61,997 nt of DNA, taken from Verrucomicrobiota bacterium. GTDB lineage: Bacteria; Verrucomicrobiota; Verrucomicrobiia; Palsa-1439. Of the stretch, positions 3 through 32,825 are shown one piece after another. Location of the stretch: contig VHCW01000017.1 of the NCBI GenBank assembly GCA_016871575.1, positions 1-61,997 of the forward strand, in the 5' to 3' direction. Both the position numbers and the translations under genes were made by a program. Numbering within the stretch: the stretch's first letter is position 1; every line of letters begins with the position of its first letter. Below the pieces are notes generated by a model. The model searched no databases. It was not told the origin of the DNA and saw only the letters and a list, made by a program, of their open reading frames with translations.

Positions 3-2987
3 CGCCCGACGCGGCCTCCGCAGAGGCCGTCGTCCTTTGAAACTGCTGATGACTCTTGGGCAGAGGGTTCAGAGCCTCAATCAAATCGAAAAACCATCAC
101 AACCTTTCGTACGGTGAAACAAATGGGCTATACCTATGGCGACGACGGTTACATGGCCACCAAGACCGATTCGCTGGGGCGCACCACCTCGTACACGTGG
201 ACGCCTTCCGGTAGACCGCTGACGACCACCTACGCCGATGGCGCAACCGAATCGTGGAGTTACAACGAGCTTGGTTCTTTGCTTTCCTACACCGACCCGC
301 TTGGGCGCGTTACGATGTACACGCGCGATTCATCGAATCGCGTCGTTCGGATTGACCGGCCCGATGGTTCTTTTGAGACCTTCGCGTACAACCAGTTCGG
401 GCAGATTGTCTCCCGCCAGCAACGCAACGGTGGCATCGAAACATCCGCCTACGACGCGCGTGGCCTGCTCACCAGCAAGACCGATGCGATGGGCAACGTC
501 ACCGGGTACGGCTACGACGCAAACGACCGGCTTGCCCGTGTCACTGATGCCCGTGGCAACTCTACGTTCATGGAATACAACGAGCGCGGGCTTGTCACCA
601 AAACCACCTACGCCGATGCCTCCTTCAAGACGTGGACATACAACGAATACGGCGACGTGGTTGCAGAAGCCAATGAGCTTGGAAACACCTGGAATTACAC
701 GCGCGATGTCTTCTGCCGCGTCACTTCCGTAACCGACCCGCTTGGTCGCACTGCCACAACCGAATACTTGGCTGACAGCTATGAGGATAAGCCACTCGTG
801 AAAACGTTACCCTCCGGCCGCAAGGCGGCGTTCACCTACGACAAGGCATGGAACACGCTCAACATCACCAACGGCGTAGGCACAGCGGAAGCCGCTGTCA
901 CGAAGTTCACGTACAACAAGGCCGACAAGGTGATCAAGATCACCGACCCGCGCAACAAGGTGACAACCTTTGACTACGATGTTCGCGACCGGCGCATTTC
1001 GGCCACTGATCCACTCGGCAACATTACGCTTTGGAGTTACGACGCCGTGGGCAACGTCCTGTCGGTGACCCGGCCCGATGGCGGCGTGACGACGAACGTT
1101 TATGACGAGATGAACTTCCTCATTTGGACGCGCGACCCGAAGATGCAGGTCACCGAGTTCACCTATGACGTTGCCGACAACCTTGTCGCGTTGAAGGATG
1201 CCCGTGGCAATTCGTATCAGTTCACTTATGACTTCCTGAACCGCCGCACCAGCATGATCTATCCGGACACCTCGCACGAAGATTATTCCTACGATGCCGT
1301 CGGGAATCTATACACGTACCGGAACCGTGACGGCAGCATCCGCACCTTCACCTATGACAACCGCAACCGGGAGACATTAGCTGATTGGAGCGACAGCACA
1401 CCCGATGTGAGCAAGACCTACGACGCAGCAGGTCGCTTGCTGACGTTGAATAACGGAGTCAGCGCGCTGACGTACACGTATGATGCTGCAAATCAATTGC
1501 TGTCGGAGTCATCAGTGGTCAGTGGTCAGTCGTCAGTTGTGGGCTACACCTACGATGCGGACGGCAACCGCGCGAGCATGACCTACCCGGATGGCACCGT
1601 CGTCACTTACGATTACACTGCTCGTAGTCAGCTTGCTTCCGTGTCTTCCGAGTCTTCCGTGATTGCTTCCTATGAGTATGACCTCAATGGCAATCGCACC
1701 GGCAAGACGCTCGGCAACGGTCTCTTTGCCAAGTACACCTATAACGCTGCGAGTTGGTTGACGGCACTGGCACACACCAACATGGCACAAGCGAAGGCGC
1801 TGACCCGGTTCAACTACACGCTCGATTCCGTCGGCAACCGCACCAACAAGACTCAGACGACGCCCAAGCCAACCAGCGGCAACTGGGTGCGCAAGGAACC
1901 TTACGGCTACGACGCTGTTGACCAGATTACGAGCGTTCTATACATTACGAACAACGTGACCACGCGCACTGTCAGCTACCAGTACGACCCGGTCGGTAAC
2001 CGGCAGCAAGTCACCGACAACGGGGAAGTGACTGGCTACACCGTCAACGCGCTGAACCAATACACGGTTGTTGACGGCGCGACGCTCGGCTACGACGCCA
2101 ACGGCAATCTGGCGTCTGCGGTCGGTCCGCCGCCGCTTGGCAACGCGACTGCGCAATACGATGCGCAAAACCGGCTGGTGTCCGCTTCCGGAGGGCCGTC
2201 CTCCGTGACGGCCAGTTTCGCCTACGATGCCCGCAACCGATGTGTTGCCCGCACCATCAACGGCATCACCACCTACCTTGTGTATGACGGCTGGTCGCTG
2301 ATTGAGGAACGTGACGCCACTGGCGCACAACTTGCCGAATATATCCACGGCGCGACGATTGACGAAATCCTATGCCGCACAACGAGCGGAGCCACTCACT
2401 ACTTCCACCACGATGGCCTCGGCAGCACGATTGCCCTGACCGACAGTACCGGCGCATTGCTGGAAAGCTACACCTATGACGTGTTCGGTATGCCGTCGTT
2501 TTGGGACGCAGCGGGAAACTCTCTTCCTTCTTCTCTCTTCGCCAATCGTTTTCTCTTTACCGGCCGCGAATACCTCGCCGACCTCACGCTCTACGACTAC
2601 CGCAACCGATTCTACTCGCCCTTGCTCGGCCGGTTCTTACAGACCGACCCGGTTAGGTTCGATGCGGAGGATGTCAACTTGTATAGATACGTAAGCAATA
2701 ATCCGGCAAGATGGCTTGATTCGATCGGCTTAATGTCACCACCCCGTGCGCGCCCCGACTACTACCGCTGGCAGCCTACATACGGGGGGCCGATAAGTAA
2801 TATGCCGATAGTTTCTGTGCCGTCAGCAAACAATTGGGTCGATATTGGAACCATTTCCGGAACAATTACAAATTTACCGCCGTCGTCTGATTTGACGTCT
2901 ATGTCGTTACGAACGAACGCACCGCCGGACCAACCCGGTCTTTCAAATACAGGAGGTATTACATCTTCTGCATGCTCACGCAGATGA
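3..2987 (+). CDS. Rhs/YD-repeat protein, 5' end probably outside the window
   Basis: This encodes an Rhs-type protein, which in known members forms a shell of YD repeats that encloses a variable C-terminal domain. YD-type repeats (YDYDGNLT-like units such as YDAVGNVLS and YDANGNLAS) run almost end to end. The conserved Rhs core follows near the C-terminus (YDYRNRFYSPLLGRFLQTDP, then LYRYVSNNPARWLDSIGL). After the DSIGL junction only about 85 residues remain. They are rich in Pro, Ser and Thr and match no toxin fold I recognise. The frame is open to the left edge, and the first internal start (GTG at 114) would give a protein with no export signal, so I treat the gene as 5'-partial. A CGGCCTC/GAGGCCG hairpin at 12-29 leaves open that coding begins at 114. 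Four 7-bp repeats lie inside at 1512-1539. The stop overlaps the next gene. The family is certain; the start and role are not. Confidence 0.88.
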   Translation, partial: RPTRPPQRPSSFETADDSWAEGSEPQSNRKTITTFRTVKQMGYTYGDDGYMATKTDSLGRTTSYTWTPSGRPLTTTYADGATESWSYNELGSLLSYTDPLGRVTMYTRDSSNRVVRIDRPDGSFETFAYNQFGQIVSRQQRNGGIETSAYDARGLLTSKTDAMGNVTGYGYDANDRLARVTDARGNSTFMEYNERGLVTKTTYADASFKTWTYNEYGDVVAEANELGNTWNYTRDVFCRVTSVTDPLGRTATTEYLADSYEDKPLVKTLPSGRKAAFTYDKAWNTLNITNGVGTAEAAVTKFTYNKADKVIKITDPRNKVTTFDYDVRDRRISATDPLGNITLWSYDAVGNVLSVTRPDGGVTTNVYDEMNFLIWTRDPKMQVTEFTYDVADNLVALKDARGNSYQFTYDFLNRRTSMIYPDTSHEDYSYDAVGNLYTYRNRDGSIRTFTYDNRNRETLADWSDSTPDVSKTYDAAGRLLTLNNGVSALTYTYDAANQLLSESSVVSGQSSVVGYTYDADGNRASMTYPDGTVVTYDYTARSQLASVSSESSVIASYEYDLNGNRTGKTLGNGLFAKYTYNAASWLTALAHTNMAQAKALTRFNYTLDSVGNRTNKTQTTPKPTSGNWVRKEPYGYDAVDQITSVLYITNNVTTRTVSYQYDPVGNRQQVTDNGEVTGYTVNALNQYTVVDGATLGYDANGNLASAVGPPPLGNATAQYDAQNRLVSASGGPSSVTASFAYDARNRCVARTINGITTYLVYDGWSLIEERDATGAQLAEYIHGATIDEILCRTTSGATHYFHHDGLGSTIALTDSTGALLESYTYDVFGMPSFWDAAGNSLPSSLFANRFLFTGREYLADLTLYDYRNRFYSPLLGRFLQTDPVRFDAEDVNLYRYVSNNPARWLDSIGLMSPPRARPDYYRWQPTYGGPISNMPIVSVPSANNWVDIGTISGTITNLPPSSDLTSMSLRTNAPPDQPGLSNTGGITSSACSRR
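1512..1539 (+). repeat. four heptamer repeats inside the rhs gene (TCAGTGG type)
   Basis: Four tandem 7-bp units: TCAGTGG, TCAGTGG, TCAGTCG, TCAGTTG. They are read in frame as a Ser/Val-rich linker (SVVSGQSSVV) between YD repeats. Neighbouring YD repeats lack this stretch, so it looks like an in-frame expansion or insertion. The unit length and copy number match the other heptamer clusters in this window, but the sequence differs. Confidence 0.7.
2951..2957 (+). promoter_or_regulatory. Shine-Dalgarno site for the TPR gene inside rhs
   Basis: AGGAGGT lies within the last codons of the rhs gene. It is 14 bases before the ATG at 2972 and 26 before the alternative ATG at 2984, which overlaps the rhs stop as ATGA. 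The layout suggests translational coupling of the two genes. Confidence 0.55.
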
Positions 2988-4598: not shown

Positions 4599-5408
4599 TC
4601 AGCGCGAGAGCGCATTGGCCAACGTGATCCATTGCTCAATGCTGAGTTCCTCGGCGCGCGCTGTCGGCGACACACCGGCAACGCGCAGTCCCTCCGCCAC
4701 GCCGCCGTAGTTCGCAAGGAGCTTGCGGAGCATCTTGCGGCGCTGGTTGAACCCGATCCGGACAATCTCGTGGAACGGCGCGTTCTTCTCCAGTTTCATT
4801 CGCGTGTCGCGCCGGTCGAGGACGATGATGGCGCTGTCCACGCGCGGTTCGGGATAAAAACAGTGCGGCGAGACGACGTGGACAATGGTGACGTGATAGT
4901 AAAGTTGCGTGAAAACCGTGAGCGCGCTGTAGTCCTTGTGCCGGGGCGTGGCGGCGAGACGGAGCGCGACTTCGCGCTGGATGGTCAGCACCATCATGCG
5001 CGGCTTGTTCGTGCCCTCGACAAAGCACTCGAGGATCGGCGTGGAAATGGAGTAGGGGAGGTTGGAGACGACTTTGAAGGTAGATGGTAGATGGTAGATG
5101 GTAGATGGGGAGAGGATTTTGACGGCGTCACCTTCGATCAACTCCAAGCCGGGGAAACGTTGCTGCAGATAGTCGGCGAGGCGCGGATCTTTTTCGATGG
5201 CAATCAGGCGGCGTGCCTGTTTGAAAAGATCTTCGGTCAACGCGCCGAGGCCCGGTCCAATCTCGATGACGGTTTCGTCGGGACGCACGTCGGCGTGGCG
5301 GAGGATGAGGTCGCGGATGTTCTGGTCGGTGAGGAAATTCTGGCCGAGCGCCTTGCTGGGGCGCAGGCCGAGTTCGGCAATGAGATGACGGACTTCGGTG
5401 AGCGTCAT
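4599..5408 (-). CDS. rsmA: 16S rRNA (adenine1518/1519-N6)-dimethyltransferase RsmA (KsgA)
   Basis: 269 residues, normal length for RsmA/KsgA, which dimethylates A1518 and A1519 of 16S rRNA using S-adenosylmethionine late in 30S assembly. Visible motifs are the entry KALGQNFLTD, the SAM-binding loop VIEIGPGLGALT, the acidic residue region LIAIEKDPRLADYL, and the catalytic NLPYSISTPIL motif. The C-terminal helical domain carries FNQRRKMLRKLL. Its ATG overlaps the stop of pdxA by 4 bases, so it is the last gene of a pckA-surA-pdxA-rsmA run on this strand. The odd point is an in-frame cluster of four 7-bp repeats (5079-5106) that encodes a STIYHLPST stretch just before the NLPY motif, where other family members have a short loop. 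The rest of the fold looks intact, so I expect an active enzyme. Confidence 0.95.
   Translation of the reverse strand: MTLTEVRHLIAELGLRPSKALGQNFLTDQNIRDLILRHADVRPDETVIEIGPGLGALTEDLFKQARRLIAIEKDPRLADYLQQRFPGLELIEGDAVKILSPSTIYHLPSTFKVVSNLPYSISTPILECFVEGTNKPRMMVLTIQREVALRLAATPRHKDYSALTVFTQLYYHVTIVHVVSPHCFYPEPRVDSAIIVLDRRDTRMKLEKNAPFHEIVRIGFNQRRKMLRKLLANYGGVAEGLRVAGVSPTARAEELSIEQWITLANALSR
5079..5106 (+). repeat. four GGTAGAT heptamers inserted in frame in rsmA
   Basis: Four perfect tandem copies of GGTAGAT on the plus strand. On the coding (minus) strand they read as ATCTACC units and give the residues IYHLPST. The cluster is closely related to the two clusters that flank the four-helix-bundle gene at 31.5-32.0 kb. 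Confidence 0.85.
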
Positions 5409-30519: not shown

Positions 30520-31509
<990 letters not shown>

Positions 31510-31514
31510 GGAGG

Positions 31515-31542
31515 AGTAGGTAGTAGGTAGTAGATGGTAGAT
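31515..31542 (+). repeat. heptamer cluster to the left of the four-helix-bundle gene
   Basis: Four 7-bp units: AGTAGGT, AGTAGGT, AGTAGAT, GGTAGAT. They lie between the moxR stop and the SD site of the next gene. The right-hand cluster at 31937-31964 is the same type in inverted orientation. Confidence 0.8.
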
Positions 31543-31555
31543 AGGAGGAAAGACG

Positions 31556-31918
31556 ATGGCGATTCAGAACTTTGAACAATTGGAAGTCTGGCAAAAGGCA
31601 CACGCGCTGACGCTGGAAGTGTATCGCCTGACTGGCAAATTCCCGGCGGAAGAGAAATTCGGGTTGGTTTCACAGATGCGCCGGGCCGCGGTGGCCGTTC
31701 CGGCCAACATCGCGGAAGGATTCAAACGCTCCGGCAAGCCCGACAAGGCCCGCTTCTACAACATCGCCCACGCTTCGCTTGAAGAACTGCGTTACTACTT
31801 CATTCTCTCGCAGGACTTGGGACTGATAAAAGACGCCACCACCTTGAAGGCCGAGGCCGACGCTATCGGCAGAATGTTGACCGCCCTCAGCCGTGCCGTT
31901 CTCTCAAGCGCAAACTGA
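31556..31918 (+). CDS. four-helix-bundle protein (S23/23S rRNA intervening-sequence type)
   Basis: 120 residues from an ATG preceded by AGGAGG. The family is recognised by FEQLEVWQKAHALTLEVYRLTGKFPAEEKFGLVSQMRRAAVAVPANIAEGFKR and the later FYNIAHASLEELRYYFILSQDLG. Members form small pentameric four-helix bundles; they were first seen in intervening sequences of 23S rRNA genes, and a diversity-generating-retroelement relative (Avd) is known. Their general function is not established. It interrupts the otherwise standard moxR-DUF58 junction and is flanked by inverted heptamer clusters (31515-31542, 31937-31964), which suggests it arrived as a small cassette. It ends 7 bases before the DUF58 start, so the operon remains readable. 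Confidence 0.92.
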   Translation: MAIQNFEQLEVWQKAHALTLEVYRLTGKFPAEEKFGLVSQMRRAAVAVPANIAEGFKRSGKPDKARFYNIAHASLEELRYYFILSQDLGLIKDATTLKAEADAIGRMLTALSRAVLSSAN

Positions 31919-31925
31919 CGCCGCC

Positions 31926-32825
31926 ATGCCAACCCCACCTACCACCTACCACCTGCCACCTACCGTCGTTCGCCGCATCCGCCAGATCGAGATCCGCACG
32001 AACCGGGAAGTCACCGACGTGCTCGGCGGCCAATACCATTCCGTGTTCAAGGGGCGCGGCATGGAGTTCGAGGAAGTCCGCGAGTACATGCCCGGCGACG
32101 AAGTCCGCTCGATTGACTGGAACGTCACCGCGCGGTTCGGCCATCCGTACGTCAAGAAGTTCAAGGAAGAACGCGAGTTGACCGTTGTGCTCATCGTGGA
32201 CGTAAGCGCCTCCGGCCAATTCGGCAGCGTGCAGCAGACGAAGAACGAACTCGCCGCCGAACTCGCCGCCGTGCTGGCGTTCTCCGCCATCCGCAACAAC
32301 GACAAGGTCGGCCTCATCATGTTCACCGACCAGATCGAGAAGTTCGTCGCGCCGAAAAAAGGCCGCCGGCACGTGTTGCGCGTCATCCGCGAGATTCTGG
32401 CTTTTCAGCCGAAGGGGCGCGGCACGGACCTCGGGGCGGCGCTCGATTACCTCAACAGCGTCGTACCCCGGCGCGCCGTCTGTTTCCTGATCTCGGATTT
32501 CCAGGACAAGGATTACGAAAAGAAACTGCGCGTCACCAGCCAGCATCACGACCTGGTAGCCCTGAGCCTGCGCGACCCTCGCGAGGAAGAACTGCCAGCA
32601 GTCGGCTTGGTGGAACTGCGCGATGCCGAGACGGGGGCGCGGGCGCTGGTGGACACGTTCGACGGCTCCGTGCGCAAATCATTTGTCGCGAAAGCGAAGG
32701 CGCGGCTGGAATTGTTGCGAGTCGCGCTCCGCTCCGCCGGTGTTGACCACGTGGAAATCCGTTGCGACACCGACTACATGCTGCCGCTGATCAAGTTCTT
32801 CCGGATGCGAGGCCGGCGGATATGA
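31926..32825 (+). CDS. DUF58 domain protein of the Bat operon
   Basis: 299 residues from the ATG at 31926. The family core is complete: VRRIRQIEIRTNREVTDVLGGQYHSVFKGRGMEFEEVREYMPGDEVRSIDWNVTARFGHPYVKKFKEERELTV, followed by a VWA-like fold (LIVDVSASGQFGS, DxSxS). DUF58 proteins are partners of MoxR ATPases. The N-terminus is odd: the first 13 residues (MPTPPTTYHLPPT) come from a four-unit heptamer repeat that starts 11 bases after the ATG. Normal members go from the start nearly straight into the V-R-x-I-R-x-I-E-I motif. The stop overlaps the next start as ATGA. The gene is expected to be functional. Confidence 0.93.
   Translation: MPTPPTTYHLPPTVVRRIRQIEIRTNREVTDVLGGQYHSVFKGRGMEFEEVREYMPGDEVRSIDWNVTARFGHPYVKKFKEERELTVVLIVDVSASGQFGSVQQTKNELAAELAAVLAFSAIRNNDKVGLIMFTDQIEKFVAPKKGRRHVLRVIREILAFQPKGRGTDLGAALDYLNSVVPRRAVCFLISDFQDKDYEKKLRVTSQHHDLVALSLRDPREEELPAVGLVELRDAETGARALVDTFDGSVRKSFVAKAKARLELLRVALRSAGVDHVEIRCDTDYMLPLIKFFRMRGRRI
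31937..31964 (+). repeat. heptamer cluster to the right of the four-helix-bundle gene, inside DUF58
   Basis: Four 7-bp units: ACCTACC, ACCTACC, ACCTGCC, ACCTACC. The reverse complement (GGTAGGT) is the same type as the left cluster at 31515-31542, so the two form inverted ends around the small gene. It encodes the TTYHLPPT stretch of the DUF58 protein. Confidence 0.82.

Follow-up and report, generated by a model that had tools for sequence, protein, structure and literature searches.

The window, meaning the whole analysed stretch of 61,997 nucleotides, is contig VHCW01000017.1 (positions 1 to 61,997, forward strand) of assembly GCA_016871575.1 from a Verrucomicrobiota bacterium of the Palsa-1439 lineage. 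Between its moxR-type AAA ATPase gene and its DUF58 gene, and outside 16S and 23S ribosomal RNA (rRNA), lies a small gene of the S23/IVP four-helix-bundle family, and direct reading of the window confirmed that this gene is bracketed by inverted heptamer arrays. The protein matches PF05635 (23S_rRNA_IVP, E 1e-36) and TIGR02436 (‘four helix bundle protein’, E 2e-34) in a profile search. The left array, or arm, reads GTAGGTA GTAGGTA GTAGATG GTAGATAGG and the right arm belongs to the inverted family ACCTACC ACCTACC ACCTGCC ACCTACC. Two units of the left arm and one of the right are variants, so that the four heptamers per side counted in the initial annotation hold only if degeneracy is allowed. 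The two arms align in inverted orientation with a score of 18 and a lag-7 identity of 0.85, and shuffling the bases of the outer 130 nt of each side 1000 times never reached this.

The likely ATG of DUF58 falls between the S23 stop codon and the right arm, although the open frame extends back to a GTG at 31893. With this start, which precedes the right arm, the arm would be translated as approximately residues 3 to 13 of DUF58, in agreement with the earlier proposal that the start codon lies inside the cassette and that the array codes near the DUF58 N-terminus. In the 5.19 Mb genome the exact pattern GTAGGT-N0-3-GTAGGT occurs at the two window arms only; the backwards control pattern is present 3 + 3 times, so the doublet motif is not unusual by itself. 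The coordinates of the features and the arm units of the S23 genes in this genome are listed in Table 1.

Table 1 Features of the window and arm units of the S23 genes in the same genome
Feature	Position	Strand	Basis or remark
moxR-type AAA ATPase gene, upstream neighbour	30520..31509	+	profile match
Left heptamer array, four degenerate GTAGGTN units, outer end of cassette	31516..31545	+	sequence
Ribosome-binding-site-like AGGAGGA, between left arm and S23 start	31543..31549	+	sequence
S23/IVP four-helix-bundle gene, 120 aa	31556..31918	+	PF05635, TIGR02436; weaker match to Avd of diversity-generating retroelements
Likely DUF58 ATG, inside cassette	31926..31928	+	sequence
DUF58 gene, downstream neighbour	31926..32825	+	profile match
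Right heptamer array, inverse of left arm, codes part of DUF58 N-terminus	31934..31963	-	sequence
Solo array of the window heptamer family, in frame inside rsmA (ksgA)	5076..5108	+	array scan
Solo array TCAGTNN inside an open reading frame, RHS/YD-repeat-like by eye	1512..1540	+	resembles arms of S23 gene L001
Arm unit, window S23 gene			GTAGGTN
Arm unit, S23 gene L001			TCAGTTN (31 nt, 90 %)
Arm unit, S23 gene L003			GACTTTA/GTCTNNN
Arm unit, S23 gene L004			GGTAAGC (weak)
Arm unit, S23 gene L005			8-bp TTGGAGTG/TCCATCAC
Arm unit, S23 gene L006			GATAGCC
Arm unit, S23 gene L007			none clear

Heptamer-armed S23 cassettes form a widespread set, of which the window feature is typical. The cassette consists of a left heptamer array, a ribosome-binding site, the S23 gene and an inverted heptamer array, together approximately 410 to 510 bp. 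A match to S23/TIGR02436 was found in 100 of the 145 genomes of the phylum sample, 93 of which exceed the family cut-off. Flanks were compared for 58 S23 loci from genomes of the same phylum (the top-scoring matches of the 145-genome profile survey and the next 20 on its list) and for the best 80 of at least 584 confirmed stretches from many phyla. These 138 loci entered the flank test and 145 domains from 135 loci were kept, after removal of domains below 30 bits (including L007), identical cores and flanks shorter than 150 bases; ten later S23 loci and L054 stand outside these statistics. As a control, upstream flanks were paired with the downstream flanks of other loci, and the 99th percentile was taken as the threshold. 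Inverted flank similarity exceeded it in 73 of the 145 domains, where 1.45 were expected (31/56 in the phylum set and 42/89 in the many-phyla set).

The mean flank autocorrelation of the S23 domains peaks at lags 7, 14 and 21, and the best period among the 73 armed domains is 7 in 54, 8 in 12, 9 in five, and 6 and 10 in one each. Under a strict test for periodic inverted arms (score of at least 15, period 7 to 9), 39 of 78 S23 genes qualified, compared with nine of 1724 other open reading frames in the same sequences; at least three of these nine (L123, L167, L170) adjoin or overlap S23 arms, and one codes for a GxxExxY nuclease. A scan of 1.29 Mb, comprising the window and the many-phyla S23 loci, found 261 arrays of period 7, compared with 10 to 93 at every other period between 4 and 13. 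The association of S23 genes with arms thus holds for about half of the domains and is not universal. At L199 (genome G131) the GAGATGA arrays around the S23 gene are, by eye, direct rather than inverted. Some S23 domains lie within stop-to-stop open frames of approximately 270 to 680 aa (L082, L097, L099, L101, L111), which may be read-through or in-frame fusions. None of the 135 S23 loci was placed in rRNA by five 23S primer patterns (at most one mismatch); their single match was a stray one, at a distance of 1.8 kb from the S23 gene concerned.

Arms, where present, consist of about four units, mostly of 7 bp (median 4.4 and 4.3 per arm in 51 period-7 loci), and the unit is specific to the copy and alike on both arms. 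Hence GGTAGGT, proposed initially as a shared mark of S23 genes, is not one: other S23 genes carry other heptamers, likewise inverted. In the left arm of the 66 strict loci G outweighs C (0.33 and 0.12; G > C in 55 loci), and a weak common unit core, R-G-N-A-R-T-N, carries 3.72 bits compared with at most 3.02 in 20 column shuffles. Most arms lie immediately beyond the ribosome-binding site on one side and the stop codon on the other, at a median of 11.5 nt from the latter, with an exception in the Nostoc sequence pC052_D, where the reading frame runs into the right array. The S23 gene points the same way as both of its neighbours in 38 of the 55 armed loci that could be tested and in 52 of 68 loci without arms, so orientation does not distinguish the armed copies.

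Protein and array vary together. S23 protein identity correlates with arm similarity (Mantel r 0.287, 0/2000 permutations), and the correlation persists in cross-phylum pairs when arm composition is allowed for (partial r 0.245, 0/1000 permutations; phylum labels of the phylum-set genomes were inferred). Mean arm similarity of cross-phylum pairs is 0.17 below 40 % protein identity and 0.39 above 60 % (27 pairs).

Seven PF05635 matches are present in the genome of the window, and reading of the flanks revealed inverted arrays of approximately 7 to 8 bp at six of them, with a different unit at each copy; multi-copy identical elements were therefore not seen in this genome. Three of the six own-genome S23 genes that entered the strict arm test passed it. 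In a gene-agnostic scan of 1.09 Mb of the genome, which deliberately takes in the S23 loci, seven inverted and three direct near pairs of period-7 arrays were found, compared with five inverted among 383 distant control pairs. Four of the seven inverted pairs are at S23 genes and three are gene-less with the unit GAAATCC; the S23 gene L005 is marked by a period-8 pair. Gene-less inverted pairs and solo arrays therefore exist beside the cassettes, and the solo arrays of this genome resemble the arms of its resident S23 genes. A GTAGRT-tolerant search of the same 1.09 Mb located further solo arrays inside rsmA, as the initial annotation had noticed, and on contig C8 (L234:16591-16620); GGTAG-type heptamers were not found genome-wide without a link to S23 genes, although solo arrays of the same heptamer do occur. 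The rsmA array directly precedes the NLPY motif and codes a repeat-derived stretch.

The 18 solo arrays of this genome outside S23 arms (lag score of at least 14) are nearer to own-genome S23 arms than to the arms of other genomes (mean 0.444 and 0.341, 0/500 draws). Four are close to an own arm, namely the rsmA array and L234:16591 for the window unit, and the array at 1512-1540 and L248:15677 for the L001 unit. The comparison was repeated on 29 solo arrays from 13 loci of the many-phyla set with a similar outcome (12/2000), the own arm ranking first in four of 13. Together with the match between protein and array, such own-arm-like solo arrays are the expected trace of a repeat-reading protein that spreads its repeat, although whole cassettes inherited together would account for part of it. 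Arrays of two different heptamers (GGTGAGT and CTTTCTG) stand adjacent twice in this genome (L202:10747-10835, L230:15157-15248). Two gene-less hairpins picked by eye did not withstand testing: L046 failed the split test, its hairpin lying within one half, and L052 was weak (23/1000).

The moxR-DUF58 junction was compared in the genome of the window and 12 genomes chosen from 53 matched genomes. It is bare (17 to 26 bp) in four of the 13. The others carry different inserts, so the junction, described initially as usually uninterrupted, is so in part of the sample only. The window has its S23 gene, G044 a different S23 gene with ACGTGAA arms and G002 one other insert, while gene-less TTTGGAT pairs occupy the site in G013, G020 and G052, and weaker hairpins in G008 and G028. 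In G001, from the genus of the window, an HNH gene (PF01844, 1.3e-06; L044:187-954) sits at the junction between 18-nt inverted ends of GCAGAAT-type heptamers. From the empty junctions in relatives at 76 to 85 % identity, the window copy itself appears to have moved.

Closer pairs are available for other copies, and by such filled and empty sites the mobility of the S23 cassette set is well supported. Compared with pC052_B (96.1 % identical) and p057_H (92.0 %), Nostoc pC052_D has its S23 unit as an insertion of 417 bp between two genes, and this unit is also absent from the same junction in pNsp_c (96.1 %). Between pNsp_a and pNsp_b (92.1 %) the same insertion recurs, broken by the aligner into pieces of 391 and 27 bp. 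One gene further downstream, pNsp_c carries a different S23 gene with GGGAAAA arms, which compared with pC052_B (95.0 %) and pC052_D (94.9 %) is an insertion of 506 bp. In these close pairs arms and gene insert together at gene junctions with no target bases lost, and the empty sites are without arrays. As aligned, the pC052_D insertion splits a stop codon between TA and G, and the unit restores TAA. No consistent target duplication was visible, with at most 3 to 4 bp of shared letters at the ends of the Nostoc inserts. At L423 (Nostoc pNPM1) the S23 gene at the same junction is seemingly broken by a nested insertion beside more CTGAATT/CTGACTC heptamers.

Two S23 cassettes were met within CRISPR operons. 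In Picosynechococcus PCC 7003 a unit of approximately 424 bp separates cas10 from a cmr3-family gene (L410) and is absent in PCC 7002; its left end is approximate because the 3’ end of cas10 aligns poorly (93.7 % over aligned bases). In Pseudanabaena (89.2 %, L409) an S23 unit whose ends are not clear lies between cas6 and cas4, and the relative holds a solo ATTACGA array. In Arthrospira, passages of PMC8700078 list four helix bundle genes as two of 24 strain-unique genes. The initial suggestion of a moving, heptamer-bounded, S23-linked unit without a transposase is thus supported by the arm tests, the correlation, the own-arm-like solo arrays and the Nostoc insertions, with clean insertion seen at 92 to 96 % identity for other copies and movement of the window copy read from the more distant relatives.

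A different behaviour was seen before a gatB-like gene in the genus designated g9. An S23 gene with GGAGAGT-type arrays occupies this site in three genomes, two contigs of which end inside an array; the S23 gene looks decayed in at least four genomes, and in two a different interior lies between similar arms. Since this alternative interior also follows a duplicated gene elsewhere, the site is read as a possible cassette exchange through the arms and not as transposition of a miniature inverted-repeat transposable element (MITE). A multi-copy MITE transposing in g9 was considered and rejected, as the upstream flanks place most copies after the same duplicated gene. In the same genus the unit CTCCACT of the right arm has multiplied to around twelve copies or more and also forms long solo arrays, some at contig ends (L342-L344, L354-L357).

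Two other gene families were examined in the same way, using the best 30 loci of each, of which 29 were usable. Genes of the GxxExxY nuclease family (PF13366; L252-L281, with a further copy at L114:2519-2950) have inverted arms above the control 99th percentile in 19 of 29 loci, built of about three CAC[AG][AG]A-type units of 9 to 10 bp, and their number per genome tracks that of S23 genes (Spearman 0.67, 79 genomes). On this sequence pattern they suggest a parallel cassette family and hint at a wider class. GIY-YIG genes (PF01541, L282-L311) were rejected as heptamer payloads, as long inverted flanks occur in seven of 29 and are not 7-periodic. Those seven are all small genes with flanks like repetitive extragenic palindromic (REP) sequences, and six UvrC-sized genes have none.

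The explanation favoured here, and held to be likely, is that the window feature is one copy of a small mobile S23 cassette that resembles REP sequences and their associated tyrosine transposases (RAYTs), lacks a transposase of its own and spreads through the S23 protein reading its own array. The nearest solved protein, 2gsc from Xanthomonas, matches with E 1.5e-20, has five chains and is described as a homopentamer in PMC4990558. An S23 oligomer would bind its own array in 7-bp register, one unit after another, and carry or mark array DNA for copying to new sites, thereby dispersing whole cassettes, gene-less pairs and solo arrays, as RAYTs are thought to do for REP sequences and for their inverted pairs (REPINs). 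The cassette encodes S23 alone, so cutting and joining must come from another enzyme, and S23 oligomers may recruit host cutting, copying or repair. Insertion between the stop and start codons of operons would be a tolerated outcome, in which an arm gives the neighbouring genes a new stop, start or N-terminus.

Several observations weigh against this explanation. The arm test is failed by 72 of the 145 S23 domains, and the sample is biased towards the best-scoring matches; ten further, mostly weaker S23 loci had inverted arms in two cases and direct arrays in one. Arrays of period 7 often form direct pairs too (60, compared with 89 inverted, in the 1.29 Mb). Only four of the 18 solo arrays in the genome of the window are close to an own S23 arm, and its gene-less pairs carry GAAATCC, which is unlike its S23 arms. 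The g9 copies with swapped interiors mostly follow the duplicated gene and hence give no evidence of transposition. Shared descent of whole cassettes, rather than recognition, could partly underlie the correlation of arm and protein. No catalytic partner was found, and the reverse transcriptase profile RVT_1 was unmatched in 58 of the 100 S23 genomes.

The last count bears on a variant of the favoured explanation, in which a reverse transcriptase acting in trans moves the cassette via RNA and S23 acts like the Avd protein of diversity-generating retroelements. The kinship with Avd (PF22296, 2.2e-06; NF033474, 1.1e-08, both below the cut-offs), for which passages of PMC10053308 also speak, makes this variant conceivable, and RVT_1 genes are enriched in S23 genomes (42/100, compared with 8/45 in the others; Fisher p 0.0047, uncorrected for ancestry or genome size, with genomes unlisted in the S23 survey counted as lacking S23 and both surveys assumed to cover the same 145 genomes). 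The 58 genomes without a match leave a resident reverse transcriptase unsupported as a requirement, and of the three RVT_1 genes in the genome of the window none is on the window contig. The variant is therefore regarded as doubtful, and a reverse transcriptase may help in some hosts. It is unlikely that the junctions already held the heptamer arrays as short tandem repeats of independent origin, and that S23 genes inserted into them or were swapped between them by homologous recombination. The existence of solo arrays and gene-less pairs would fit such an origin, as would the g9 site, where similar GGAGAGT arms enclose S23 in three genomes and other sequence in two, and the Pseudanabaena site, which has a solo array and no S23 gene. 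The Nostoc empty sites, however, lack any array, the whole unit including its arms being absent, and arm sequence tracks the S23 protein across phyla.

A function of the arms in RNA, as a stem around the S23 reading frame that is cut by RNase III as in the intervening sequences (IVSs) of rRNA and kept for its folding, appears very improbable. The precedent is the Coxiella IVS, for which passages of PMC4990558 describe S23, tandem heptamers and, at the ends, a stem of 28 bp that RNase III cuts, and the window arms do pair in the predicted RNA fold. The fold z-score is only -1.32, however, and 11 of 100 shuffles fold as well; mismatches between arms are G-U-compatible in 89 cases on the coding strand and in 112 on the opposite strand, and this lack of an excess argues against selection on an RNA stem, nor is the orientation to the neighbours strict. 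Conservation of the stem at the RNA level was rejected on the absent wobble bias and the weak z-score. That the arrangement is due to chance, or is an ordinary operon gene with low-complexity flanks, is hardly credible: about half of the S23 loci do lack clear arms, but the excess of strict arms over other reading frames and the clean insertions already contradict it.

Taken more broadly, there is about an even chance that S23 cassettes, and probably those with GxxExxY genes, form a distinct, phylum-spanning, transposase-free mobile class in which an oligomeric four-helix-bundle protein reads its own arrays and disperses them as cassettes, as hairpins without a gene and as solo arrays, with IVSs as special cases and the heptanucleotide repeats of cyanobacteria, Xanthomonas and Beggiatoaceae as by-products. 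The tie between S23, arrays and mobility offers a link to two long-standing puzzles, ribosomal IVSs and the heptanucleotide repeats of bacteria. The proposal is testable, as for every S23 protein the binding site is predicted from its own array, and if true, a transposase-free mover based on an Avd-like protein would give DNA a novel means of spreading. In searches of the open-licence PMC library, which leaves out most subscription journals, no listed paper presented S23 genes beyond rRNA as mobile cassettes with heptamer ends, judging by title, opening of the abstract or selected passages.

Ribosomal IVSs are a known relative of the S23 cassettes. The IVS in Coxiella 23S rRNA, called selfish in passages of PMC4990558, is approximately 430 nt long, with GACAGAT heptamers upstream of its S23 reading frame, and shares with the cassette the S23 reading frame, terminal inverted repeats and tandem heptamers. 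The cassettes differ in lying between protein genes, in having heptamers that form both arms, are copy-specific and track the protein, and in the occurrence of solo arrays and gene-less pairs. Published heptanucleotide arrays, TAACTGA in Beggiatoaceae and cyanobacteria (passages of PMC4679880) and GGGAATC in Xanthomonas and Nostoc, with 70 to 75 inverted pairs in Xanthomonas (passages of PMC4692102), are 7-bp arrays at gene junctions, some of them in inverted pairs, like S23 arms, and on the present data might derive from S23 units; neither paper has ‘S23’ or ‘four helix’ in its main text.

Avd is related to S23, PF05635 resembling Avd (passages of PMC10053308), but unlike a diversity-generating retroelement the cassette has no reverse transcriptase, template repeat or variable repeat. 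With MITEs and insertion sequences the cassettes share terminal inverted ends and presence or absence at sites; they differ in having no internal transposase and in that no long target duplication was seen. In the REP/REPIN-RAYT system, according to passages of PMC3116915 and PMC8266576, a gene stands beside its cognate repeats, with inverted pairs without the gene, solo repeats and coevolution. The S23 gene similarly stands beside its own covarying repeats, with gene-less inverted pairs and solo arrays in the same genome. The gene of the insert is S23, which is not known to be catalytic, and not an HUH/Y1 transposase (the rest of the genome was not searched for Y1 transposases), and the insert has no other known gene, which places it outside RAYT membership and leads to the proposal that S23 recruits host enzymes. 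In place of the HUH/Y1 transposase of RAYTs and its palindromes, the S23 cassette thus has a four-helix bundle and tandem heptamers.

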